Assembly (NCBI RefSeq): GCF_003030305.1
Contig: NZ_CP023676.1
Span: 930,001-994,000, forward strand
Direction: 5' to 3'
Source of the DNA: Cutibacterium acnes
Lineage (GTDB): Bacteria; Actinomycetota; Actinomycetes; Propionibacteriales; Propionibacteriaceae
DNA: 64,000 nucleotides
Position numbers and translations under genes: made by a program. Shown piece by piece: positions 448-13,883 of this stretch (its first letter is position 1; every line of letters starts with the position of its first letter). The notes under the pieces were generated by a model. The model was not told the origin of the DNA. It searched no databases and saw only the letters and a program-made list of their open reading frames with translations.

Positions 448-1392
448 TCAGTCAAGATGGCCTAGCACCGCCCTCGCCGTCGCTATGTCGGTTACCAGAT
501 CCGTCACCCATTTACCTCGCAGAATTGCCGTTAGGGCCGGCACCTTTTCGGATCCAAAGGCGCTGACGATGACGTGGGTGATTGATGGAATCCGGTCCAG
601 CGGAACTGCCATCAACCCTTGACAAAAGTCTGCGTCAATGTGACGACCCCGGGTATCGACGTGATGCCCGCAGATGTGTCCTACGGCCCCGCGTGACAAC
701 AACTCTGTGTGTGCGCGCTCCGACATCACGTGGTCGAAGATCGGCGCCACCGAATGCATTCCGACTGTTCCTACGCCGGTCACCAAGATGTCTGCGTGAG
801 AGGCCATCGCGATCGTCATACCCACTGACTCCTCGGCCTTCAACGCGGCCGCTGCCTGAGGATTCGACACCAGCACCGGAGCCGGCATCACCCGGTATGC
901 ACACCCGATTCGTTCTGCTAGCTGACGGCACAACTCGGGAGAGTCCAACAACAAATTTCCCTTGGCTGTCCCACCAATAGCCTGCACCACCGTGGCCCCC
1001 GGACGGCGTATCGGCGTCATCGCATGCACCACTGACGCCACCCCGCGCCCGTTCGACAACGCGATTACCGAATCGGGATGCATGTACGTCGTCACCAGGT
1101 CGGCTGCCATCCGCGCCACCTCGTCGGCCGTGGCATTGTCGTTGGACATCGCGACTCGGGCGCAGGTCAGCCCGAAGGTGCGTGTCAGAGCGTCCTCTAA
1201 CTCGATGGCTCGCTCCAAAGGATGCTGCACTGTGAACGTGATGATCCCGCGACGCCTCGCCTCGTCAAGAAGCCTGGACACCATCGAGCGGGAGTAGCCG
1301 ATCTCGGCGGCGATTTCGGCTTGAGTGGCCTGCTCTAACCAGTACCGCCGCGCGACCGTCAGCAAGGTTTGGATGTGTTCGCGATCAGTCAT
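448..1392 (-). CDS. SorC/DeoR-type sugar-binding transcriptional regulator
   Basis: A 314-residue regulator. Residues about 15-50 form a helix-turn-helix (QAEIAAEIGYSRSMVSRLL), followed by the SorC sugar-binding domain, an isomerase-like fold that binds phosphorylated sugars. The domain has the family's glycine-rich phosphate-binding stretches (ALSNGRGVASV, ADILVTGVGTVG). Length matches the family. It is transcribed away from the sugar-acid operon starting at 1572, and a palindrome at 1399-1412 ends 6 nt upstream of its ATG, so it probably controls both itself and the operon. The inducer is not visible from sequence; a phosphorylated intermediate of the operon is the natural guess. Confidence 0.85.
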   Translation of the reverse strand: MTDREHIQTLLTVARRYWLEQATQAEIAAEIGYSRSMVSRLLDEARRRGIITFTVQHPLERAIELEDALTRTFGLTCARVAMSNDNATADEVARMAADLVTTYMHPDSVIALSNGRGVASVVHAMTPIRRPGATVVQAIGGTAKGNLLLDSPELCRQLAERIGCAYRVMPAPVLVSNPQAAAALKAEESVGMTIAMASHADILVTGVGTVGMHSVAPIFDHVMSERAHTELLSRGAVGHICGHHVDTRGRHIDADFCQGLMAVPLDRIPSITHVIVSAFGSEKVPALTAILRGKWVTDLVTDIATARAVLGHLD

Positions 1393-1571: not shown

Positions 1572-2564
1572 ATGGCCGTCGTTCGTACCATCAATGGCGA
1601 CGTTTCGCCCGACACCCTCGGCGTCGTCAATGCCCACGATCACCTCATCCGCGTCGGAGCCGGGGAGGTCTACATCGACCCTGACCACTTGCTTGACGAC
1701 GTCGACAAGGCAGCCCAGGAGGCTACATATTTCGTCGAGGCCTCTAAGAGCTGGGCCGCTGGGGGAACCATCATCGACATGTGCCCGGCCTCCTCAGGCC
1801 GCGGCGTGCTCAAAACCCTCCAGGTCGTCGAGAAGGTTCCGGGGCTGCAGGTCGTCCAAGCCACCGGATTCCACCAGCAGAAGGTCTACCTCGAGTGGCG
1901 TCAGAGCTGGGTCAACCAGTACACCGTCACTCAGATCGCCGATCTACTCATCGCCGACATCGTTGAGGGCATCGACCGTTTCGACTATATGGGCCCCATT
2001 GTCGAGCGCACCAACGTCAAGGCGGGCGTCATCAAGTGGGCCACCGCCTACGGCAAGATCACCGAGTGGGAAAAGAAGTCCGGCCAAGCCGTCGCCATCG
2101 CATCTAAGGAGACCGGCTGTCCCATTAACACCCACGTGACGGCCGGAACTTGTGGCCCTGAGCAGGCAAGATTCCTTGTTGACCAGGGTGTTGATCCGGC
2201 CAAAATCGCTATCGGCCATATGCAGCGCAACTGGGATCCCTGGGTTCACGAGCAGATCTGCAAGCTCGGCTGCTACGTCGAGCTGGACGGCACTAACCGC
2301 ATCAAGTACGTCCCGGATAACACCCGCGTCAACCTCGTGAAGACCCTCGGTGAGAAGGGCTACGGCAAGCAGATTCTGTTGGGCACCGACTCCGGTAAGG
2401 CCTCTTACCAAAAGGTTTACGGTTCGGTCTCAGGCATCGATTACGATCCGGCCGTCTTCTGTCCACGTCTCGTCGAAGACGAAGGCGTCGACCGCGACTA
2501 CGTTAACGACCTCCTCATCAACAACGCGGCCACCTTCTTCGGCTTCGAGCCGCTGGCCGGGTGA
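1572..2564 (+). CDS. Phosphotriesterase-family metal-dependent hydrolase (probable phosphosugar lactonase)
   Basis: A 330-residue COG1735 amidohydrolase. All ligands of the binuclear metal site are visible: His22-x-His24 (AHDHL), the carboxylated lysine Lys155 (AGVIKWA), His188 (INTHVT), His216 (AIGHMQ) and Asp273 (GTDSG). The ATG at 1572 is chosen because GAGAGAGG lies about 10 nt upstream and the HxH motif then sits at the usual distance; an in-frame start at 1491 would overlap the operator. Several family members hydrolyse sugar lactone phosphates. Standing first in an operon with UlaD/UlaE/AraD-like genes, it is a likely non-orthologous replacement for the UlaG lactonase (inference). The stop overlaps the next start. 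Confidence 0.85.
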   Translation: MAVVRTINGDVSPDTLGVVNAHDHLIRVGAGEVYIDPDHLLDDVDKAAQEATYFVEASKSWAAGGTIIDMCPASSGRGVLKTLQVVEKVPGLQVVQATGFHQQKVYLEWRQSWVNQYTVTQIADLLIADIVEGIDRFDYMGPIVERTNVKAGVIKWATAYGKITEWEKKSGQAVAIASKETGCPINTHVTAGTCGPEQARFLVDQGVDPAKIAIGHMQRNWDPWVHEQICKLGCYVELDGTNRIKYVPDNTRVNLVKTLGEKGYGKQILLGTDSGKASYQKVYGSVSGIDYDPAVFCPRLVEDEGVDRDYVNDLLINNAATFFGFEPLAG

Positions 2565-3223
2565 CGACGATGCCACGACTTCAGATCGCTCTTGACACCT
2601 ATGATCTGCCGTCGGCCCTGGCTCCGTTGGCCACCGCCGTCGACCAGATCGACATCATCGAGTGCGGTACCATCCTCGTCCTTGCTGAGGGAATGGATGC
2701 GGTGCGGGCTATCCGGGCTGCCTACCCTGACAAGACAATTCTTGCTGACGTTCGCATTGCCGAAGCCGGGGCCAAGATCGCCCGAATGTGCTTTGAAGCA
2801 GGCGCCGACCTCGTCTCCTGTGTCGCCGGAGCATCCCTGACAACCATCGACCAAGTATGCAAAGTGGCCGGGGAGTTCGGCGGTGAAGTGCAAGTCGAGC
2901 TCGCCGACGAGTGGTACGACGCCGAGCGTGCCCGCAGATGGCGCACACTCGGCGTCCAACACGTCATCGTCAAGCGTTCCCGTGACCGCGAGGCCGCCGG
3001 AGACCTCTCCTGGAAACCAGAAGACCTCGGGCGGGTCGACGAGCTGGCAGGAATGGGATTCACCGTCACCGTCACCGGAGGAATCACCCCCGAAGACCTT
3101 CCGGTTTTCGCTGGGCATCCGGCCGGCATCGTAATTGCCGGTCGCTCAATTGTCGCTGCTGATGATCCCAAAGCTGCCGCGAAACGACTGCGCTCCACCT
3201 TGGATGAGGTGTGGCCGCAATGA
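2561..3223 (+). CDS. UlaD-like 3-keto-gulonate-6-phosphate decarboxylase homologue with altered active site
   Basis: A 220-residue TIM-barrel protein of the OMP-decarboxylase superfamily, very similar in layout to E. coli UlaD (ALDTYD, IIECGTIL, VTVTGGI, IAGRSI). The family's DxKxxD motif reads D63-V-R65-I-A-E68, so lysine is replaced by arginine and the second aspartate by glutamate. The UlaD YHRSRD motif reads VKRSRD, with Lys138 where His136 of UlaD sits. Asp12, Glu34 and Glu113 are kept. The fold is secure; the exact reaction is not. The GTG at 2561 overlaps the previous stop; an ATG at 2570 is an alternative start. Confidence 0.8.
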   Translation: MTTMPRLQIALDTYDLPSALAPLATAVDQIDIIECGTILVLAEGMDAVRAIRAAYPDKTILADVRIAEAGAKIARMCFEAGADLVSCVAGASLTTIDQVCKVAGEFGGEVQVELADEWYDAERARRWRTLGVQHVIVKRSRDREAAGDLSWKPEDLGRVDELAGMGFTVTVTGGITPEDLPVFAGHPAGIVIAGRSIVAADDPKAAAKRLRSTLDEVWPQ

Positions 3224-4107
3224 CCGAATCGCTGACCGACGGGGTGACCCTCGGCATCTATGAGAAAGCCCTCGTCGGCAACCCCTTGGCTACCGACGAC
3301 GACTGGCGACGCTTCCTAAACCAGGTACCCGAGGCAGGATTCAGCTTCGTCGACCTGTCCGTCGATGAGTCTGAAGAGAGGATGGCACGGCTCGGATGGG
3401 ACCAGCGCCGGCGTCGCATGGTGCGCCATTGCGTTGAGGCCACAGAAACCGCTATTGGTGGTGTCTGCTTGTCGGTACATCGGCGTATTGGCCCTGGTAG
3501 TGCCGACCCAGCCGTGCGCCAGCGAGCTCGGGAGGTGATGGGCGAAGGATTGCAGCTGTGCCACGACCTTGGCGCTCCTGTGCTTCAGGTCGCGGGGTAT
3601 TACTGCTACTACGAGCAGATGAACGACCATGCCGAGCAGTGGTACACCGACCTCCTGCTCGATGCCGTCCCGATGGCTGCACGGCTGGGGGTCGTCATGG
3701 GCATCGAGAATGTTGACGGCACCGACGTCACCTCTATCCGGAAGGCGATGGAGTTTGTCAAGCTTGCCGACTCGCCCTACCTGCAGGTGTACCCAGACCT
3801 TGGCAACATTGCCGAGCAACAGCTTGACGTCGTGACCGAACTCGAGGCCGGGCGGGGCCACATGGTCGCGATCCACGTCAAGGATGTTAGGCCGGGCGAG
3901 CCTCGTCGGGTACCAATGGGGGAGGGCACCGTCGACTGGGACGAGTCCTTCGCTGTCCTTGCTGAGCAGGGTTGGCGCGGCCGAATGATGATCGAGATGT
4001 GGAACGACGACGCTCCCGATTCCAACACGCGCAGTGCGTCAGCACGCCAGTTCATAGAGGAGCATCTTAGGACCGCTGGAATCCCGGTTCGCCGCGCCCT
4101 CTTTTGA
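3220..4107 (+). CDS. UlaE-like L-xylulose-5-phosphate 3-epimerase
   Basis: A 295-residue xylose-isomerase-like TIM barrel, close to E. coli UlaE in length and motif order: DLSVDESEERMARLGW, CLSVHRR, the metal-binding Glu in GIENVD, His in AIHVKD and Glu in MIEMW. No catalytic residue seems to be missing. It would interconvert L-xylulose-5-P and L-ribulose-5-P after decarboxylation. Its ATG overlaps the preceding stop as ATGA, implying coupled translation. A GTG three codons upstream (3211) is an alternative start. Confidence 0.85.
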   Translation: MTESLTDGVTLGIYEKALVGNPLATDDDWRRFLNQVPEAGFSFVDLSVDESEERMARLGWDQRRRRMVRHCVEATETAIGGVCLSVHRRIGPGSADPAVRQRAREVMGEGLQLCHDLGAPVLQVAGYYCYYEQMNDHAEQWYTDLLLDAVPMAARLGVVMGIENVDGTDVTSIRKAMEFVKLADSPYLQVYPDLGNIAEQQLDVVTELEAGRGHMVAIHVKDVRPGEPRRVPMGEGTVDWDESFAVLAEQGWRGRMMIEMWNDDAPDSNTRSASARQFIEEHLRTAGIPVRRALF

Positions 4108-4194
4108 CCCTGGGCTGGGGGCTCGGCATGAATTCCGGGCCGCCCAGTTCTGCGCCTCTACAAATTTTCATTATTGTTCAAAGGAGAACCCTTC

Positions 4195-4863
4195 ATGCTT
4201 GAAAAGCTCAAGACAGACGTCTGTCGAGGCAACCTCGGACTGCCCCGTCATGGACTTGTGACGTGGACCTCGGGCAACCTGTCCGCTCGGGACCCTGAGA
4301 CCGGCCTTGTCGTCATCAAGCCGTCCGGGATGCTGTATGACGCTATGACCCCGGACGATATGGTTGTTGTCGACCTTGACGGCAAGGTCGTGGAGGGGCA
4401 TCGAGGAGCGTCCTCCGATACCGCCTCACACTTGTATGTCTACCGACGTCGCGACGACATTCGGAGCATTATCCACACCCATTCCACCTTCGCCACCGCG
4501 TGGGCGGCCACTGGCCAGGACATCCCCTGTGCAGTGACGGCCATCGCTGATGAGTTTGGGGGGCCAGTGCCGTGCGGCGACTACGCCCAGATTGGCACTG
4601 AACAGATTGGTGAGCAGATCATGAGGTTCATTGACCAGTCGCCAGCGGTGCTACTCAAAAAGCATGGTGTCTTCACTGTCGGCACCTCGATCGAGAAGGC
4701 CATCAAAGCAGCTGTCATGGTTGAGGACGTCGCCAAGACCCTCACCTACGCCAAACTCATCGGCGAGATCTCCCCACTTCCACAGTCGGAGATCGACTCC
4801 AACCACGATCGATACACCAACCGTTACGGCACTGCGGCAGCATCCACGGGGGTGACGGCATGA
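4195..4863 (+). CDS. AraD/UlaF-family class II aldolase/epimerase (probable L-ribulose-5-phosphate 4-epimerase)
   Basis: A 222-residue class II aldolase/adducin protein. Zinc ligands are seen in IIHTHST and KKHGVF, the substrate loop in SGNLSA, and the AraD-type SSDTASH carries Asp where aldolases have Glu. The start at 4195 follows AAAGGAG at 4181-4187. Oddly, the C terminus reads NRYGTAAAS instead of the AraD ending HGxxAYYGQ, so the tyrosine equivalent to the catalytic Tyr229 of E. coli AraD is not evident. Epimerase is the likeliest role given the neighbours, but an aldolase or decarboxylase role cannot be excluded. An 87-nt gap precedes it and its stop overlaps the kinase start. Confidence 0.78.
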   Translation: MLEKLKTDVCRGNLGLPRHGLVTWTSGNLSARDPETGLVVIKPSGMLYDAMTPDDMVVVDLDGKVVEGHRGASSDTASHLYVYRRRDDIRSIIHTHSTFATAWAATGQDIPCAVTAIADEFGGPVPCGDYAQIGTEQIGEQIMRFIDQSPAVLLKKHGVFTVGTSIEKAIKAAVMVEDVAKTLTYAKLIGEISPLPQSEIDSNHDRYTNRYGTAAASTGVTA

Positions 4864-5810
4864 CCTACGACATCTCGACCATCGGCGAGGGGCAGATCCG
4901 GCTCACCTGCTATAAGGGTGAACGTCTCATTAATGCCCAGCAGTTGCGTGCCACCGCAGCCTGCTCCGAGGCCAATGTGTCCGGCTTGTTGTCTCAACTT
5001 GGGCGCAGTACCTGTTGGGCCTCTGTCATGCCGAAGGGCGATCTTACTGATCGGGTCGTCAACGAGTTCCGCAGTGTTGGGGTCGACGTTTCCCACATCT
5101 GTATGAAGCCCGAAGGGCGCGTCGCGTTGTATTTCATGGAGCCCGGTGAGTATCCGATGCCTGCCCGCGTGCTCTACGACCGGGAGCACACCCCGTTCCG
5201 CGACGTCACCGTCGAGGACCTCGACTGGGAGGCCTTGCTCGATACCCGTCTGGTCTTTGTCACTGGCATCACCGCTGCCTTAACCGAGAATACTGCGGCT
5301 GTGGTGCGTCACTTCGTTGACGAGGCTCACCGCCGTGGCATTGCCGTCGCCCTCGACGTCAACTACCGGTCCCTGCTGTGGGGTCCGGAGCACGCTCGTG
5401 AGGTGTTGGAACCAATTGCAAGGATGTCGAATATTGTCTTCTGCTCGGTGCGTGATGGCAAGGCCGTCTTCGGCATCGAATCTGATGGGGAGCAGGCATG
5501 CCGCGAATTGCGTGAACTGTTTGGGGTCCCGACGGTCGTGTCTACCGATCAAATCAATGGTGTGTACTTCTCGGACGCCGAGCGCGGCGACTGCACGTTC
5601 CCCGTGGTTCAGGTGCCCGTCATCGACCGCCCGGGCGCGGGAGACTCCTTTGTCGCGGGAACCCTTCACGGGTATCTCGGAGGTGACGTGGTGCAGGGAA
5701 TCCATTATGGACAGCGGACCTCCGCCTACGCTCTAACCCATTACGGTGATCTGACTCGTGTGAGCCCTAGCGAACTCAATATTCCCCCGAATACCGACAT
5801 TCTGCGCTGA
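4860..5810 (+). CDS. PfkB-family carbohydrate kinase (2-keto-3-deoxygluconate kinase-like)
   Basis: A 316-residue ribokinase-fold protein. The PfkB signature DRPGAGDSFVAG near residue 258 carries the GAGD anion hole and catalytic Asp. ALDVNYRSLLW resembles the KdgK subgroup, which phosphorylates keto sugar acids. It overlaps the preceding gene by ATGA and is followed by the permease. In an operon with a permease rather than a PTS, this is the obvious enzyme to phosphorylate the imported sugar acid or lactone. The phosphate acceptor is inferred from context only. Confidence 0.85.
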   Translation: MTYDISTIGEGQIRLTCYKGERLINAQQLRATAACSEANVSGLLSQLGRSTCWASVMPKGDLTDRVVNEFRSVGVDVSHICMKPEGRVALYFMEPGEYPMPARVLYDREHTPFRDVTVEDLDWEALLDTRLVFVTGITAALTENTAAVVRHFVDEAHRRGIAVALDVNYRSLLWGPEHAREVLEPIARMSNIVFCSVRDGKAVFGIESDGEQACRELRELFGVPTVVSTDQINGVYFSDAERGDCTFPVVQVPVIDRPGAGDSFVAGTLHGYLGGDVVQGIHYGQRTSAYALTHYGDLTRVSPSELNIPPNTDILR

Positions 5811-5844
5811 ACCTGATCACAGCGCAGACAGGAGACACACTCAC

Positions 5845-7203
5845 ATGTCCACCTCAACAACACCCAAACAATCAGCTCTAGACCTCATCGATTCGCGTCC
5901 CTTAACGCGCAATCAGAAGAATCTTGTTGCCCTAGCCGTCGTCGGAAATATCTCCGAGTTCTTTGATATCTTCCTCATTGGTTTCGTCGTATCCGTCCTG
6001 ACTAAGCCATGGAATCTGACTGGCACTGAGGCGGGCGTCATTCTCGCCTGTTCCGGTCTGGGGACGGTCATTGGCGCCATCATGTGGGGACGTCTTGCCG
6101 ACAAGATCGGACGCCGCTCCTCTTTCTTCTGGTGCGTGCTCCTGTTCGTCGTGTTCACTGTAGTATCAGTGTTCACCCCAGATCGTGGCTGGATTATGCT
6201 CGCCATTTTGCGTATTGGCGTGGGGATCGGAGTCGGCGGACTTAATATCACCTCGATTCCCTACGTCCAGGAGTTCGTGCCTGCTAAGCAGCGCGGTCTT
6301 CTTGCCGGCCTGGCGTCGGTATTCATCCCCCTCGGTCTGTTCTTGGGGTCGTTAGCACAAAATGCACTGGGCGATAATTGGCGTGCCCTCATCGCTTTGG
6401 GCGCCATTCCTGTTTTCCTGCTGGTGTGGATCCGTTTCGTGCCCGAATCACCACGGTTCCTACAGAGTCATGGGCGTGATAAGGAAGCACGCGAGGCCCT
6501 AGCCTGGGCACTCGATATACCCGCTGACGACATTGGAGATTTGCCTGCCGTTGAACACGTCCAAGACGCTTCCTACTCACTTGTCTTTGGTAAATACCGC
6601 AAGAGTCTTCTCATCGTCAGTCTGGGATCATTCTGCTTCATTCTGGGCTCTTTTACGATTCAGTCGTGGGGCCAGACCCTGCTCAAGACCGGCTTTGGCA
6701 AGTCTCCCGAGCAAGTCGGGACCCTGTTCATGTTCGTTTCCCTGGCCGATCTCATCGGGCGCTTCCTATCAGCATGGCTGGCAGACCGCATTGGTCGGAG
6801 AGCCACCATGTTGTCGTTTGGCCTCATCGGTGCTGGCGGGACTCTCATCATCGCCCTTTCGGCCCGCCTGGGTTGGGGCTGGCAGATCTTCTTCGTCGGT
6901 GTCCTCATTGCGATGGCCTTCGCCGACGGCGCCTTCGGCATCCTCAATGCTTTCGGCGCCGAGCAATTCCCCAACGAAGCTCGCTCGACTGGTCTGGGAC
7001 TGGGCTACGGCATCGGCGCCACCGCCAAGATCATCGGTCCGGCGCTTATGGGACTCATGGTGGGCGGATCTGCCGTCAAGCAGAATGTCACCCTGGACGC
7101 GGTATTTCCGGCATTCATCCTGTTCGCTGTGCTGCTAGTCATTGGCGGTATGACGTACATGTTTGCCCGCGAAACTCGTGGCACCTCGCTCGACACGATC
7201 TGA
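5845..7203 (+). CDS. MFS sugar or sugar-acid transporter
   Basis: A 452-residue major facilitator permease with about 12 membrane segments. Motif A is present in both halves (GRLADKIGRRSS and WLADRIGRRATM), and the sugar-porter-like PESPRFL follows TM6. It ends the operon, 34 nt after the kinase, with AGGAGA ahead of the ATG. The expected role is proton-coupled import of the sugar acid processed by the preceding enzymes. The substrate is unknown. Confidence 0.88.
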   Translation: MSTSTTPKQSALDLIDSRPLTRNQKNLVALAVVGNISEFFDIFLIGFVVSVLTKPWNLTGTEAGVILACSGLGTVIGAIMWGRLADKIGRRSSFFWCVLLFVVFTVVSVFTPDRGWIMLAILRIGVGIGVGGLNITSIPYVQEFVPAKQRGLLAGLASVFIPLGLFLGSLAQNALGDNWRALIALGAIPVFLLVWIRFVPESPRFLQSHGRDKEAREALAWALDIPADDIGDLPAVEHVQDASYSLVFGKYRKSLLIVSLGSFCFILGSFTIQSWGQTLLKTGFGKSPEQVGTLFMFVSLADLIGRFLSAWLADRIGRRATMLSFGLIGAGGTLIIALSARLGWGWQIFFVGVLIAMAFADGAFGILNAFGAEQFPNEARSTGLGLGYGIGATAKIIGPALMGLMVGGSAVKQNVTLDAVFPAFILFAVLLVIGGMTYMFARETRGTSLDTI

Positions 7204-7715
7204 CCAATTAGATGATCCTGATGTCGAGGGCCTGTACCTGCCTCAAAGGATTGACCGAGGCCGTGACTTGACGGGGTGGTTTAGGGGTCCTCGACACGCC
7301 AGATCGAGCGGTGCGGAGTGATTTACGACGTTGACAGTGAGATCTGGAGGTTCTTTGGTGGCCTTAACGGCGTCCACGATGGATAGACGGCATTACAGGC
7401 CTTGCTGTCCTTTACAGTGATAGATGTTGTGCTCGTCACTGGTGGCTGCTGCAGTTGCGGAATCCAACGTGTCAAGTCGTCATAGGCCGTTGCACAGCAT
7501 CTCTTTGTCCCCGACAGCTCTCCATGACAACGAGGTTTCGGTCTCGGCAACCTCTGACGTAGCAGCGTCGAGAACCTCAACGTCAGGGTCAAGGTGGGGG
7601 CTATGCCGGCATGGTGTCACCCGGATCTTTGCCTGGTTGGAGCTGGTTTGAGACGGCATTTCCCGATTAGTAGGGCGAGGACCGTCGTGAGCGCACGGCA
7701 CGGCGGTAGGTTAGA
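7204..7715. other. Long intergenic stretch with possible decayed minus-strand coding
   Basis: About 500 nt separate the permease from the TPP riboswitch. On the minus strand, adjoining frames (about 7700-7480 and 7590-7320) give short protein-like runs interrupted by stops, which could be a decayed gene. I recognise no family and assign no gene. Confidence 0.3.
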
Positions 7716-7719
7716 AGGC

Positions 7720-7812
7720 AACGACGCGGGAGCCCACTGATCGCTGTGGGCTGAGAGGGCGCCACGAAGGTGCCGACCGCCGGAACCTGTCCGGATCATG
7801 CCGGCGAAGGGA
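7720..7812 (+). promoter_or_regulatory. TPP (thi-box) riboswitch
   Basis: The conserved thi-box elements appear in order: CGCGGGAGCCC (7725-7735), CTGAGAGGG (7751-7759), GAACCTG (7783-7789), the CCGG-ATCATG-CCGG arm and loop (about 7790-7803), and GAAGGGA closing P1 (7806-7812). It lies directly upstream of thiM. The final GAAGGGAG also serves as the thiM ribosome binding site, so control by hiding the Shine-Dalgarno sequence when thiamine pyrophosphate binds is plausible. The 5' boundary is approximate. Confidence 0.9.
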
Positions 7813-7821
7813 GTGGTTGAC

Positions 7822-8631
7822 ATGACTGAATTGTCGAATTTGGTGGCGGAATCTGTAGAGCGATTACGCCGAGACAAGCCGCTGGTGCAGTGCCTGACGA
7901 ACATCGTCGTGGCTAATTTCACCGCTAACGTGTTGCTGTCTGCAGGGGCGGTTCCTGCCATGGTCGACAATCCCGAGGAATCCGAGGGATTCGCCTCCAT
8001 TGCCGACGGTGTACTCGTCAACACCGGAACTCCCTACCGGGAGACCGCTGAGGCCATGATTGCTGCTGCGCGCGGTGCCGCAAGCAGCAACACACCATGG
8101 GTACTTGACCCGGTGGGGGTAGGCATGCCATGGCGCACTCGGGTGGCCCTGGATACCTTGGACGTCGCCGCTCCAGCCGTCATCCGGGCGAACGCCTCTG
8201 AGGTGTTGGCATTGGCCGGTACTGGTGCCTCCGCTCGAGGTCCGGAGGCAGGAGATGCTGTTGAGGATGCCTTGGCGTCCGCGACTCAGCTCGTCCGCCG
8301 TTACGGCTGCGTAGTGGCCATTAGCGGCCCCGTCGATCACATCCTCGATGCGGACCGGCATGTGATCGTGTCATCGGGGCATGAGTGGATGACGCGGGTT
8401 ACTGGAGTTGGGTGCTCACTGGGAGCTCTCACGGCAGCCTTTGCGGGAATCCAGAATGACCACCTCATCGCGGCCGTGTCCGCGACCGCCATGTTGTGTG
8501 TCGCCGCCGAACGGGCAGCTGAGCGCAGTGCTGGTCCGGGGGCTTTCGCGCAAGCTCTTGTTGACGAATTATTCCTGGTATCACCCGACGAGGTTGGTGA
8601 GCGGGGAGGGCTCCGCGATGTCACGGCCTGA
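7822..8631 (+). CDS. thiM: Hydroxyethylthiazole kinase
   Basis: A 269-residue ThiM. It has the family N terminus (PLVQCLTNIVVANFTANVLL), the substrate loop SAGAVPAMVDNPEE, and the C-terminal GVGCSLGALTAAF motif with the catalytic cysteine. It phosphorylates 4-methyl-5-hydroxyethylthiazole for thiamine salvage. The start is set at 7822 because an in-frame ATG at 7798 lies inside the riboswitch core and GAAGGGAG is well placed for 7822. thiE overlaps its 3' end. Confidence 0.93.
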   Translation: MTELSNLVAESVERLRRDKPLVQCLTNIVVANFTANVLLSAGAVPAMVDNPEESEGFASIADGVLVNTGTPYRETAEAMIAAARGAASSNTPWVLDPVGVGMPWRTRVALDTLDVAAPAVIRANASEVLALAGTGASARGPEAGDAVEDALASATQLVRRYGCVVAISGPVDHILDADRHVIVSSGHEWMTRVTGVGCSLGALTAAFAGIQNDHLIAAVSATAMLCVAAERAAERSAGPGAFAQALVDELFLVSPDEVGERGGLRDVTA

Positions 8632-9268
8632 ATTTGATCTGTCGGTTTACCTCGTCACCGACACCGCCCAGTGTGGCGGACCTGACGAGGTTGTTGAGAC
8701 CGTGCGCCACGCTATCGCCGGCGGGGTGACTCTGGTCCAATTCCGCGACCACGACTTGTCCGATGACGAGTTCGTCGCTTTGGGGCGACGCGTCAGAGAG
8801 ATCTGTGTGTCGGGAGGGGTGCCCCTCATCATTGATGACCGCGTACATCTCGTTGCCGAAATTGGGGCCGATGGTGTCCATGTTGGGCAGTCTGACATGC
8901 CGGTCGACCAGGCCCGTGCGATTCTGGGCGACGATCTACTCATCGGCTTGTCCGCTCAGACTCCCGCCCATGTGGAGGCCGCCCTGTCCCAGGGGCGTGA
9001 CATCGTCGACTATCTGGGAGTTGGGGCCCTGCATGGTACTGGAACCAAACCTGAGGCTGGGGAGCTCGGCCTGGCTGAGATTCGTGATGTCGTCAACGCC
9101 AGCCCGTGGCCGGTGTGCGTCATCGGTGGGGTGAGCGCATCCGATGCTCAAGACGTAGCCCGGGTGGGATGTGACGGCCTGAGCGTCGTCTCGGCGATTT
9201 GCCGGAGTACCGACCCCAAGTCCAGTGCACGGGAACTTGCGGAGGCGTGGCGTACGGCGAAGGAATGA
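8618..9268 (+). CDS. thiE: Thiamine-phosphate synthase
   Basis: A 216-residue ThiE TIM barrel that joins HMP pyrophosphate and thiazole phosphate to thiamine phosphate. Landmarks are VQFRDHDLSDDEF, LIIDDRVHLVAEIGADGVHVGQ, GVGALHGTGTKP and CVIGGVSASD. The ATG at 8618 lies within the end of thiM and follows GGGGAGGG; a longer frame from 8408 runs through thiM and is rejected. With thiM it forms a TPP-controlled salvage pair. Confidence 0.93.
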   Translation: MSRPEFDLSVYLVTDTAQCGGPDEVVETVRHAIAGGVTLVQFRDHDLSDDEFVALGRRVREICVSGGVPLIIDDRVHLVAEIGADGVHVGQSDMPVDQARAILGDDLLIGLSAQTPAHVEAALSQGRDIVDYLGVGALHGTGTKPEAGELGLAEIRDVVNASPWPVCVIGGVSASDAQDVARVGCDGLSVVSAICRSTDPKSSARELAEAWRTAKE

Positions 9269-9380
9269 TGACCATGGCCTGGTGTGGAGACGTGCACAAA
9301 TGGCCATAGATGCTGGCATCTTGTTCAGATGAGCGGACCTGGTGCGCAGCGTTCTGAATCAGGCGCGAAGGCACCTTAAG

Positions 9381-10349
9381 ATGACCGTCATGAGCACTTT
9401 TGACGCCACTCGTCGCGCCTCCAAAATTTCCGTTGTCGGTGCTGGTTCAGTCGGTTCTTCACTGGCCTACGCCTGCCTCATCCGTGGATCGGCCGGCCTG
9501 GTATCCCTCTACGACATCGCCAAGGACAAGGTCGAGGCCGAGGTGGCGGATCTCGCCCACGGCACTCAGTTCACCCCTGCTTCGGTCATGGGCGGTGCTG
9601 ACGTCCACGACACTGCTGACTCTGACGTCGTCTTCATTACTGCTGGGGCCAGACAAAAGCCGGGCCAGACTCGCCTAGACCTCGCCGGCGTCAACGCCAA
9701 TATTTTGCGTTCCCTCATGCCACAGCTCGTTGAGCAATCCCCGAACGCCCTGTTCGTGCTAGTGACCAACCCGTGTGACGTCCTCACCGTCGTTGCCCAG
9801 GAGGCCACCGGATTGCCCGCCAACCGTGTTTTTTCCACCGGTACGATGCTCGACACCTCGCGGCTGCGTTGGCTCATCCGTCAGTGGGCCAACGTCGAGC
9901 AGCGTCATGTCCATGCCACCATTGTGGGCGAGCACGGCGACTCGGAGTTTCCGCTGTGGTCGACAGCCAATATCTCCGGTGTACCGATCCGCGACTGGGC
10001 AGTTGACGGTAACCGGGTGTTTACCGAGGATGTACTGGCTGACCTAGCCCACGAGGCGGCTTACGCGGCTTACAAGATTATTGAGGGCAAGGGCGCTACG
10101 AACTACGCCATTGGCTTGACGGGCGCTCGTCTAGCCGAGGCTTTGCTCCGTCCAGGCCGCTCCGTTCTGCCATTGTCGAGCGTCATGACGGACATGCACG
10201 GAATATCGGGGGTGGCCCTATCGATGCCCTGCATTGTCTCCCGTGACGGCATTGAGGGGGTCGTCCCCGTTGCTATGGATACCGAAGAAATCGCTTCTCT
10301 CAAGGCTTCAGCGGAACGGCTGCGTGACACTTTGTCATCGATCGCTTGA
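9381..10349 (+). CDS. ldh: L-lactate dehydrogenase
   Basis: A 322-residue NAD-dependent LDH. It has the Rossmann motif [26 protein letters not shown], the substrate-binding TSRLRWLI and the catalytic histidine in [13 protein letters not shown]. It interconverts pyruvate and L-lactate in the cytoplasm. Start choices are ATG 9381 or ATG 9390; the frame is open further upstream, but the conserved region begins just after 9390. It stands alone between thiE and the malic enzyme gene. Confidence 0.92.
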
Positions 10350-10391
10350 CCCGATGAACATCTGTGCTGCTGACCGCATAAGCTAGGGGAT

Positions 10392-12098
10392 ATGTCAGTT
10401 CCCTTTCAGTATGCGCATGATGACGACGGAGGCCTTCTAAGGATTGCGGCCCGTGGCCAGGAGGTGTTGACGAACCCTCTGGCCAATCGGGGCACTGCCT
10501 TCACTATCGAGCAGCGAAAGGCGCTTGGTCTCACCGGCCTGTTGCCGTCGGGTGTCATGACAATCACTGATCAGCTCAAGCGGGTCTACGCACAGTATTC
10601 GGCGCAGCCTGATGACCTAGCCAAGTACCTGTACCTCAACCACATGCATGACCGCAATGAGGTGCTGTATTTCCGCCTCCTTGCCGAGCATATTGAGGAG
10701 ATGCTTCCAATCGTTTACACGCCGACCATCGGCAAAGCGATTGAGGAGTACAGCCACTGGTACGACCGTCCGCGCGGCATCTACCTGTCCATCGATGATC
10801 CGGAAGACATGGAGCAGGCTCTCGCACAGTTGGGTCATGGCCCTGACGGCGTCGACCTCATCGTGGCCACCGATGCGGAGGGCATCCTGGGCATCGGCGA
10901 CCAAGGTGTCGGTGGCGTCGCGATCACGGTAGGAAAGCTAGCCGTATACACCGCAGCTGCAGGGATTCACCCTCACCGCGTGCTCCCGGTCATTCTCGAC
11001 GTCGGTACCGACAATATGGAACGTCTTAACGACGATGGCTACCTTGGGGTACGTCACCCCCGCGTGCGCGGCGAGCGTTACGACGAGTTCGTCCAGCAAT
11101 ATGTCGAGACCGCTCACCGGATGTTCCCCCACGCCCTACTGCACTGGGAGGATTTTGCGGCCGGCAACGCCACCCGGATTCTCAACAAATACCGCGACGA
11201 CTACTGCACGTTTAATGACGACATCCAGGGCACCGCGGCTGTCGTCGTCGCGGCAGTGCTGAGCGCCGTTAAGTCGTCGGGGATCCCGCTGAATGATCAC
11301 CGCATTGTCATCCATGGGGCGGGCTCGGCTGGTACCGGAATTGCCAACCTGCTGGTGCAGCTTATGGTGAGCCAGGGCGCTGACGAAAAGACGGCTCGCT
11401 CCCATTTCTGGGGGCTTGGATCCCATGGCTTGTTGCGCGAAGGTTTACGTCTGCGCGACTTTCAGCAACCCTTCGCCCGCAGTAAAGAGGAGTTCGAAGG
11501 CTGGACCCTCGATAGCCCAGACCAGTACACGCTCGGTGACGTGGTACGAAACGTCCACCCGACGATCCTTATCGGCTGCTCCGCCCAGCCCGGTGCCTTC
11601 ACCGAGGACATCGTCAAGACGATGGCTGCCCAGTGTGAGCGTCCGGTCATCATGCCACTGTCGAACCCGACCCGTAAGGCTGAAGCCCTGCCGTCCGACG
11701 TACTCACGTGGACTGACGGACGTGCTTTGGTCGCGACCGGTTCGCCGTTCAAGCCAGTCATGGTCAATGGTGTGACCTATCAGATCGCGCAGGCGAATAA
11801 CGCTCTGGTGTTCCCAGGAATTGGTTTGGGAACTATCGCTGTTCGGGCGTCCCGGGTCACTAGCGGCATGATCGCGGCCGCTGCCGAGGCGGTGGCGATG
11901 CATATCGATAACCGCGTTGTGGGAGCTTCGCTGTTGCCGTCAATCAAGAGCCTAAGGCCATTGTCGGCATCTGTGGCCATTGCTGTTGCCCAGCAGGCGA
12001 TGGAGGAGGGCGTGGCAACCGAGGTCACGGACAATCCAGTTGAGAAGGTGTTCTCGGCGATGTGGCAGCCGCGTTACCCGCGCATCGCGGTTGTCTGA
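10392..12098 (+). CDS. NAD-dependent malic enzyme (malate dehydrogenase, oxaloacetate-decarboxylating)
   Basis: A 568-residue malic enzyme of the large form. It has NRGTAFT and ALGLTGLLP near the N terminus, YTPTIGKAIEEYSHWYDRPRG, the Mg and NAD region YCTFNDDIQGTAAV, the Rossmann GAGSAGTGIANLL, and ANNALVFPGIGLG near the C terminus. It converts malate to pyruvate and CO2. It follows ldh in the same direction with a 42-nt gap that may hold its own promoter (CATAAG before the ATG). This is a sensible pyruvate-node pair in a fermenting organism. Confidence 0.92.
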   Translation: MSVPFQYAHDDDGGLLRIAARGQEVLTNPLANRGTAFTIEQRKALGLTGLLPSGVMTITDQLKRVYAQYSAQPDDLAKYLYLNHMHDRNEVLYFRLLAEHIEEMLPIVYTPTIGKAIEEYSHWYDRPRGIYLSIDDPEDMEQALAQLGHGPDGVDLIVATDAEGILGIGDQGVGGVAITVGKLAVYTAAAGIHPHRVLPVILDVGTDNMERLNDDGYLGVRHPRVRGERYDEFVQQYVETAHRMFPHALLHWEDFAAGNATRILNKYRDDYCTFNDDIQGTAAVVVAAVLSAVKSSGIPLNDHRIVIHGAGSAGTGIANLLVQLMVSQGADEKTARSHFWGLGSHGLLREGLRLRDFQQPFARSKEEFEGWTLDSPDQYTLGDVVRNVHPTILIGCSAQPGAFTEDIVKTMAAQCERPVIMPLSNPTRKAEALPSDVLTWTDGRALVATGSPFKPVMVNGVTYQIAQANNALVFPGIGLGTIAVRASRVTSGMIAAAAEAVAMHIDNRVVGASLLPSIKSLRPLSASVAIAVAQQAMEEGVATEVTDNPVEKVFSAMWQPRYPRIAVV

Positions 12099-12128
12099 TG
12101 CGCTGACTGAGAGGTCGGCTGATGCCAG

Positions 12129-12167
12129 GCTCGCGCTTCATGCGCATGCTTTGTATGAGGCGCGAGC
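12129..12167. terminator. Bidirectional hairpin between convergent genes
   Basis: GCTCGCGCTTCAT (12129-12141) pairs with ATGAGGCGCGAGC (12155-12167) at 12 of 13 positions across a 13-nt loop. It lies between the malic enzyme stop and the stop of the convergent gene. There is no clear T-run, so it may act as a structure-only terminator. Confidence 0.6.
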
Positions 12168-12721
12168 TACGCTCTGATCATTAATGCCGAAATGGGGGAG
12201 GACATCCCTGACCCGTGGGTAAGCATGACGGTGGCATCGGTTCGTGGACAATCGATCGTGATCGTGCCGTGAACCTTGTGGCCTTGGGATACACCAGTGC
12301 CGAGTGAGCCTGTAGGGGGCTGGCTCGCCTGATGGATATCGGTTGACTGGTTCTCCATGATGAAGAAGATGTAGTCGGTCAAAGAACCCTTGGTGACCGC
12401 GATGGTCATCGTCAGGGTGACGGTGTTAGGTCCCCATTCCACGTGGTCGATTGACCACCTCCCCTCGGTGTCATCATCCTTCGAGGAGAAGGGTAAAGAG
12501 GAGGCGACCGCAGTAGCCGATGCCGGAATGGGCGTCGGAGTCGAGGACGCGGATGTCGCAATGGGGGACGGCGTCGGCGTGACGGGGTTCGCCGGCTCGG
12601 TCGTGACCCGGCGTGCAACGATGACCAGCGCGACGACGAGCGCTGTCACGATGATGACGGCGATCCAGCCGCCGTGGCGTTTCGGCGGCCGGTACTGGTT
12701 GATGTCAGGCGGTTGGTTCAT
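12167..12721 (-). CDS. Single-pass membrane protein of unknown function
   Basis: A 184-residue protein from ATG 12721. A short cytoplasmic head precedes one hydrophobic segment (residues about 19-36, WIAVIIVTALVVALVIVA). A Pro/Thr/Ser-rich linker of about 35 residues then leads to a C-terminal domain of about 110 residues with alternating hydrophobic strands (VEWGPNTVTLTMTIAV), which looks like an extracytoplasmic immunoglobulin-like beta sandwich similar to the DUF4352 type. No catalytic motif is seen. The longer frame from 12883 would run into the promoter of the divergent gene. Confidence 0.6.
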   Translation of the reverse strand: MNQPPDINQYRPPKRHGGWIAVIIVTALVVALVIVARRVTTEPANPVTPTPSPIATSASSTPTPIPASATAVASSLPFSSKDDDTEGRWSIDHVEWGPNTVTLTMTIAVTKGSLTDYIFFIMENQSTDIHQASQPPTGSLGTGVSQGHKVHGTITIDCPRTDATVMLTHGSGMSSPISALMIRA

Positions 12722-12757
12722 GGTGGCTCTACTGTACGTTGTTGCGCGCGGCTGATG

Positions 12758-12860
12758 TTGTCCACAGCATGGCGTCAAGACAAGGTGGCGCAGATGGGAG
12801 TTGTCCACAGATTCGAAATTGCTTGGCGAATGTGGCGGGGTCGAGACGACAACTGGAGGT
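12758..12860. promoter_or_regulatory. Upstream element of the DUF4192 gene with two DnaA-box-like sites
   Basis: TTGTCCACA, the actinobacterial DnaA-box consensus, occurs at 12758-12766 and again at 12801-12809. The 60 nt from 12801 to the gene start align closely with the 59 nt upstream of comEA (17416-17474), sharing GAAATTGCyTGGCGAA and CGACAACTGrAGGTATG. This is probably a shared promoter or regulator site. Confidence 0.55.
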
Positions 12861-13883
12861 ATGACAGCACTACATTCCTCCACCGCTGATAACCGTGATC
12901 CGCTGACCGTCAGAACCGTCGAAGAAGCGGTGACCTTGGCGCCGTACCTCTTGGGATTTCAGCCTACTGAGAGCCTGCTCATGATTGTCGCCGACGACGG
13001 TGCCGCGTGTCAGGGTTTCGTTGCCCGAGCTGATCTCGATGGCCTCGAATCCGCCCCGGCTATGAATGCCTTCGCTGCGCGGGTCGGTCCCTTGGCAGGG
13101 CAGGGTCGAACGGTCGTCTTAGCGTTCAGCAAAGATCAAGATCGCGGTATGGTGACTCTGGCATCGGCCGTCGAGGCGATGAAGGGCATGAATATTGGTG
13201 ACGCCGCGTGGACTGACGGTGAGTATTGGCGCAGTATCTTCTGCGATGAACAGGGTTGTGGCGAAAACCACCGCTTTGTTCCGGATCCGACCATTGCAGC
13301 CGAAGCGGTCTATCGCGGGCTAACCGTCCTGCCCAGTCGCACCAGCCTCGTCGATAAACTCTCGGGCCCTGGGCGCACCTGTGATCCAGATACCCGCAGA
13401 CTCCTGGCCAATTCCCGGCGGCGGCTTTCCCGCAAAGATGACAACACCGTGGAGGTCAGGTGTCAAGCCCTCTTTGAGTCTGGCGATGAGATCAACGATG
13501 CGGTTGTGACGGAGCTAGCGGTTGCCGTCCAGCGTTCCGACGTAGCGCGCAGACTGTGGATGTCAATGGAACGGGCCGACGCGTCACGGTGGCTCAGAAT
13601 ATGGAGTCGAGCAGTCGAGATCATTCCTGATCGGATGGCGCCAGCACCGCTGTCTCTGTGCGGACTGGCAGGATGGTTGAGCGGTGAAGGAGCAGTGGCG
13701 GCGGTGTGCGCTCGGCGATGCGAATTCATGGTGGGAACAGCCGACCTGCCAGCTGCGCTGACAGTCATCGTTGACGCTTTTGTACCGCCCAAGCTGTGGG
13801 ACGTGATGGACCATGACCCGGCAGTGATTGCCCACCCATTTTTAGAAGAGCAGGTAGACGAGGAGATCAACTTATCGGCGTAG
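12861..13883 (+). CDS. DUF4192 domain-containing protein
   Basis: A 340-residue protein of the actinobacterial DUF4192 family, recognised by the N-terminal APYLLGFQPTESLLMI and the mid-region DGEYWRSIFC segment. The biochemical function is unknown. The start at 12861 is placed after CTGGAGGT, although the Shine-Dalgarno-like GGAGG ends only 1 nt before the ATG, which is too tight for normal use. The transcript may be leaderless, or that stretch may be part of the upstream element shared with comEA. It is convergent with the VIT1-like gene. Confidence 0.75.
   Translation: MTALHSSTADNRDPLTVRTVEEAVTLAPYLLGFQPTESLLMIVADDGAACQGFVARADLDGLESAPAMNAFAARVGPLAGQGRTVVLAFSKDQDRGMVTLASAVEAMKGMNIGDAAWTDGEYWRSIFCDEQGCGENHRFVPDPTIAAEAVYRGLTVLPSRTSLVDKLSGPGRTCDPDTRRLLANSRRRLSRKDDNTVEVRCQALFESGDEINDAVVTELAVAVQRSDVARRLWMSMERADASRWLRIWSRAVEIIPDRMAPAPLSLCGLAGWLSGEGAVAAVCARRCEFMVGTADLPAALTVIVDAFVPPKLWDVMDHDPAVIAHPFLEEQVDEEINLSA

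Follow-up and report, generated by a model that had tools for sequence, protein, structure and literature searches.

The gene at positions 2561-3223 of the 64,000-nucleotide stretch of the Cutibacterium acnes genome analysed here (the window) probably encodes a working decarboxylase of the KGPDC branch, which would convert 3-keto-L-gulonate 6-phosphate to L-xylulose 5-phosphate with a repacked active-site pocket, as part of a PTS-free ascorbate route. DxKxxD is regarded as the hallmark of catalysis in the OMPDC suprafamily; in E. coli UlaD its lysine and aspartate, Lys64 and Asp67, are catalytic residues. Both residues are replaced in the C. acnes protein, and the same replacements are found throughout an actinobacterial clade that shares a conserved operon.

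The gene lies on the forward strand, starts with GTG and encodes 220 amino acids. The protein aligns end to end with E. coli KGPDC/UlaD (1kv8; 187 bits, E 2.9e-54, 45% identity), scores only about 90 bits to HPS, and is recognised by Pfam OMPdecase and by the NCBIfam models for KGPDC/HPS. The AlphaFold model, which is of a monomer (pLDDT 93.7), fits KGPDC structures best (Z 34, 1.2-1.3 A), followed by HPS (Z 29) and OMPDC (Z 24); by both sequence and fold the top solved relatives are all KGPDC, ahead of HPS and OMPDC. Because it departs from KGPDC at two defining residues, and because it reaches only 235.3 bits against the KGPDC subfamily model NF009832 of NCBIfam (cut-off 250 bits), the protein is best called a member of a DxRxxE subfamily and not a standard UlaD. 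It is 95% identical to its counterpart in C. namnetense and 89-90% to those in C. avidum and C. modestum, and the canonical proteins nearest to the clade share only about 45% identity with it. No second UlaD-type gene was found in the C. acnes genome, so 2561-3223 is the sole copy.

Alignment with UlaD places Arg65 at Lys64 and Glu68 at Asp67, in a motif that reads Asp63-Val-Arg65-Ile-Ala-Glu68 (codons 2747-2764, forward strand), and Lys138 at His136, in Lys138-Arg-Ser-Arg141 (codons 2972-2983, forward strand; His136-Arg-Ser-Arg139 in UlaD). The preliminary description had reported these three substitutions correctly, and the E. coli residues that it had named are all on the published list of KGPDC active-site residues: D11, E33, D62, K64, D67, I87, C88, E112, H136, S138, R139, T169, G191 and R192 (PMC5980557). 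The unchanged polar residues of this site are Asp11, Glu33, Asp62, Glu112, Ser138, Arg139, Thr169 and Arg192 in UlaD numbering, and Thr169 is the single residue unique to KGPDC (PMC5980557). The Mg2+ ligands Glu33 and Asp62 correspond to Glu34 and Asp63 here and are present in 37/37 clade members; Glu112, Arg139 and Thr169 correspond to Glu113, Arg141 and Thr172 and are kept in 37/37, 36/37 and 37/37. Arg141 is Cys in the Actinomyces timonensis UlaD (L037) alone and is invariant elsewhere in the clade. In this family, according to the structural literature, Asp67 acts across the dimer interface.

To place these substitutions, loci were collected from genomes of the bacterial family (147), the phylum (396) and a second order (396), together with a scan of 84,980 species genomes that reaches close relatives only. 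The resulting clade sample comprised 37 distinct UlaD-like proteins, all from Actinomycetota: Cutibacterium, other Propionibacteriaceae, Actinomycetaceae, bifidobacteria-like bacteria and other families. Arg65 and Glu68 occur together in all 37 and in none of the seven UlaD references of other phyla; the substitutions are therefore neither chance nor sequencing error. DxKxxD with His is found in HPS proteins of the same bacteria and in the seven UlaD/SgbH references, which come from Enterobacterales, Lactobacillales and Mycoplasmatota. Among 394 genomes of the class, no canonical UlaD was found besides the clade members. In a UlaD-only tree in which columns 65, 68 and 138 were masked, a branch supported at 98/96 separates the DxRxxE proteins from the others. 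An earlier tree, also with the trait columns masked but with four distant outgroups, had given two changes between Arg/Glu and Lys/Asp; since the UlaD-only tree gives one, the long HPS branches are the likely cause and the two-change history was abandoned.

The clade differs from the references by the fixed substitutions K64R, D67E, T85S, I87V, C88A, V134I and F188V and by one inserted residue, near position 149. Of the seven diagnostic substitutions, four coincide with one of the 24 positions listed for the active site (P 0.003); the charged side chains are lengthened, and three residues of strand 4 are shrunk. The sequence pattern suggests that the pocket changed as a unit, and it is what repacking would look like. 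The preliminary description had held that the three changes go together in an otherwise well-kept protein. The remaining catalytic residues are indeed kept, and Arg65 and Glu68 are inseparable, but the clade-wide substitutions at UlaD positions 85, 87, 88, 134 and 188, in or near the pocket, had been missed, and residue 138 varies: it is Lys in 29 members and His in eight. His138 is carried by the earliest-branching member (G616) and by seven proteins of one bifidobacteria-like family, whose hosts are probably bifidobacteria. Residue 138 changes twice on the best tree, and a single Lys clade is not rejected (p-AU 0.24). The same operon surrounds Lys138 and His138 members. Lys138 was considered as the mark of a new function and ruled out: it cannot define a new reaction because His138 occurs within the same operon in the bifidobacteria-like members.

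At the locus in the window, a divergent SorC/DeoR-type sugar-binding regulator (448-1392, reverse strand; PF04198, 181.6 bits) adjoins the operon, as it does at nearly every locus whose sequence extends that far. All other genes of the operon are on the forward strand. The first encodes a phosphotriesterase-family lactonase (1572-2564; PF02126, best solved relative 3msr), which is 36% identical to the lactonase of a Mycoplasmopsis PTS-ascorbate/ulaDEF operon, has its metal ligands (HxH, bridging Lys, two His, Asp) and is predicted to open a phosphorylated lactone. The lactonase reading frame opens at GTG 1491, 81 bases upstream of the homologues' start, and ATG 1572 is the likelier start. The decarboxylase gene is followed by genes for a UlaE-like L-xylulose/L-ribulose-5-phosphate 3-epimerase (3211-4107; NF009688, 384.6 bits, cut-off 317), in which the Glu/Asp/His/Glu motifs of the metal site are kept, and a UlaF/AraD-like L-ribulose-5-phosphate 4-epimerase (4174-4863; NF005123, 344.4 bits, cut-off 251), a short form that keeps the HTH metal motif and is without about 10 residues of the E. 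coli active-site loop. Lactonase, decarboxylase, 3-epimerase and 4-epimerase genes thus stand side by side (1572-4863). Downstream are a PfkB kinase (4860-5810; PF00294, GAGDSF motif, nearest solved relative 2afb), which is nearest to 2-keto-3-deoxygluconate kinases rather than to a known kinase for ascorbate or 3-ketogulonate, and an MFS transporter (5845-7203; PF00083/PF07690) that is conserved in the operon. The lactonase and decarboxylase genes overlap, as do those of the decarboxylase and UlaE and of UlaF and PfkB; gaps of 66 and 34 bases separate UlaE from UlaF and PfkB from the transporter. A second UlaF/AraD-like gene elsewhere in the genome (G000:C1:2460923-2461525; L165, about 5921-6538) is 74% identical to 4174-4863, contains two in-frame TGA codons and is likely a pseudogene; an FGGY kinase and a UlaR-like regulator lie around it.

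The operon contains no oxidoreductase gene, and no ascorbate PTS (UlaABC) is linked to its enzymes, the MFS transporter and PfkB kinase being present instead. A set of lactonase, epimerases, kinase and transporter with no oxidoreductase implies that the nutrient is already as oxidised as a 3-keto-hexonolactone, for example ascorbate. Import, phosphorylation, lactone hydrolysis, beta-keto acid decarboxylation and C3 and C4 epimerisation, with no redox step, would fit L-ascorbate. A distant UlaA/UlaB/UlaC-like PTS is encoded at 483 kb in the same genome (L163, G000:C1:476000-492000, 6690-9093); it is 29% identical to E. coli UlaA, and no ula enzyme adjoins it.

The DxRxxE proteins define a clade with the same operon, an association that the preliminary description had proposed to look for. 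The gene set is kept across the other clade loci, with local loss or replacement of UlaE and UlaF. Two bifidobacteria-like clusters, L108 (G769, 5321-10891) and L157 (G602), consist of lactonase, UlaD, PfkB and MFS genes without UlaE, and no UlaE was found anywhere in the G769 genome. One locus had suggested that bifidobacteria lack the epimerases altogether; this was dropped for most of them, UlaE lying directly after UlaD in G543 and G867. At L156 (G911, 12058-13785), the MFS gene is followed by UlaE and UlaF genes of a remoter type (35-49% identity), which looks like a replacement of the epimerases.

UlaG is the L-ascorbate-6-phosphate lactonase and makes the KGPDC substrate in E. coli. No UlaG was found in the C. 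acnes genome, and the argument from UlaG therefore goes via relatives. An E. coli UlaG query matched in 3/147 and 1/392 genomes; UlaG thus occurs in 4/539 genomes overall and in 3 of the 31 with a DxRxxE UlaD (hypergeometric P 7e-4, uncorrected for relatedness). In G097 (L146), UlaG is the final gene of a DxRxxE/Lys operon, where no phosphotriesterase gene was found; in G121 (L159) it lies between the regulator and the MFS gene, with a phosphotriesterase also present; and in G616 (L144), the early-branching DxRxxE/His member, it lies about 8 kb away, past a transporter cluster adjoining the regulator, and no phosphotriesterase was found beside the cluster. With the UlaG equivalog model (cut-off 306), these three proteins reach 579-617 bits. 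UlaG also occurs in a fourth genome, G033 of the Propionibacteriaceae (L168, 6478-9681), beside a UlaC-UlaA-UlaB-like PTS and with no UlaD match. Mycoplasmopsis operons show the converse, a lactonase of phosphotriesterase type next to an ascorbate PTS and a DxKxxD UlaD. Lactonase type and uptake system are thus swapped around UlaD of either motif, and the simplest reading is that the reaction is unchanged. The preliminary description had proposed a changed reaction (isomerase, aldolase or a different keto acid), and the retention of Glu112, Arg139 and Thr169, the presence of UlaE and UlaF downstream and the UlaG genes in or near the cluster in three genomes argue against it.

The KGPDC reaction by a repacked pocket has to be weighed against several other readings. 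Some points tell against it: the score below the NF009832 cut-off, the identity of only about 45% to canonical proteins, the recourse to relatives for UlaG, the kinase's affinity with 2-keto-3-deoxygluconate kinases, the two bifidobacteria-like genomes without UlaE, the shortened UlaF loop, and the caution of the UlaG study that ula operons of divergent type might serve other hexose phosphates (PMC3219644). We rate as less likely than not a broader alternative in which the clade either removes CO2 from another 3-keto-hexonate 6-phosphate or carries out the KGPDC reaction by an altered proton route and with an altered stereochemical outcome, in an undescribed actinobacterial pathway with PfkB as an ascorbate (or 3-ketogulonate) kinase. 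Taken by itself, an enzyme that is still this type of decarboxylase but serves another 3-keto-hexonate 6-phosphate seems rather improbable. Its substrate would be a diastereomer, for example one derived from erythorbate, or would come from some other phosphorylated sugar-acid lactone that the phosphotriesterase accepts, and Arg65 and Glu68 would set the preference. The changed residues line the substrate pocket, most clade members have the phosphotriesterase lactonase rather than UlaG, and the kinase is of keto-deoxygluconate type, all of which would suit such a substrate. However, UlaG replaces or joins the lactonase beside the same DxRxxE/Lys enzyme, and most members keep both UlaE and UlaF, which are needed for L-xylulose 5-phosphate but would be superfluous for D-ribulose 5-phosphate, the product of a route from erythorbate.

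It is very unlikely that the fold now serves a different reaction, as an isomerase, an aldolase such as hexulose-phosphate synthase or an epimerase. The signature motif of the suprafamily is altered, and KGPDC and HPS enzymes are promiscuous (PMC5980557), but the C. acnes protein has Glu, Thr and Arg where HPS has Asp (position 112), Ala (169) and no Arg (139). HPS homologues of the same bacterial family have these HPS-type residues together with DxKxxD. Moreover, what the pathway requires is a decarboxylase, its epimerisations being covered by separate enzymes, and residue 138 toggles between His and Lys with no change of operon. That catalysis was lost, through decay or in favour of a non-enzymatic role, is likewise very unlikely: the catalytic roles of Lys64 and Asp67 in UlaD are established family knowledge and the K64A and H136A mutants have been crystallised, but the same replacements and the metal ligands occur in 37/37 homologues of several families, pairwise dN/dS among the Cutibacterium copies is about 0.03-0.1, indicative of purifying selection, and the genome holds no other UlaD; together with the conserved operon, this agrees with the preliminary view that the substitutions are not decay.

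For the KGPDC reaction that we favour, the mechanism would be as follows. The enzyme would strip CO2 from 3-keto-L-gulonate 6-phosphate to give L-xylulose 5-phosphate through a cis-enediolate intermediate as in E. coli UlaD, with Glu34 and Asp63 holding Mg2+. Arg65 would assume the enediolate-stabilising charge of Lys64 and Glu68 would fill the role of Asp67, the longer side chains being given room by the smaller strand 4 residues Ser86, Val88 and Ala89 (for Thr85, Ile87 and Cys88), and the proton may be delivered by Lys138 or His138 with Arg141. In the proposed route, the MFS transporter would import ascorbate or a close relative, the PfkB kinase would phosphorylate it at C6 and a lactonase, of phosphotriesterase type or UlaG in some genomes, would act before the decarboxylase; UlaE and UlaF would then lead to D-xylulose 5-phosphate.

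This arrangement can be compared with known systems. The C. acnes protein shares with E. coli UlaD its fold, the equivalents of Glu33/Asp62, Glu112, Arg139, Thr169 and Gly191-Arg192 and the UlaE and UlaF homologues downstream; it differs in the seven clade substitutions, in H136K (His in 8/37) and in the insertion, and its operon has MFS and PfkB for the ascorbate PTS and usually a phosphotriesterase-type lactonase for UlaG. The Mycoplasmopsis ascorbate operon (phospho-furanose lactonase, ulaABC-like PTS, ulaDEF) likewise combines a phosphotriesterase-type lactonase with UlaD, UlaE and UlaF, but its UlaD keeps DxKxxD and His, and it has a PTS and no kinase. The E. coli yia-sgb cluster (YiaMNO, LyxK, SgbH, SgbU, SgbE), which includes 2,3-diketogulonate reductase, also places non-PTS uptake and a kinase ahead of a KGPDC, although the kinase LyxK is of FGGY type, the transporter is a TRAP system and SgbH has DxKxxD and His. 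3-Hexulose-6-phosphate synthase (HxlA) belongs to the same suprafamily and shares the fold (Z 29) but has Asp112- and Ala169-type residues and DxKxxD, at about 30-36% identity. Nothing relevant to this operon, to an ascorbate kinase or to UlaD in Cutibacterium or Bifidobacterium was found in the open literature, nor any assay of a clade member, and novelty is provisional because the search covered open literature and little of the subscription literature.

A natural clade with Arg and Glu at these positions in a coherent operon offers a test of how an enediolate active site can be repacked without a change of reaction. Annotation pipelines keyed to the lysine motif may mislabel DxRxxE genes. 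For the bacteria themselves, the operon predicts PTS-free vitamin C use, with an unassigned kinase, by Cutibacterium, Actinomyces and bifidobacteria-like bacteria, which live on human skin and in the mouth and gut.
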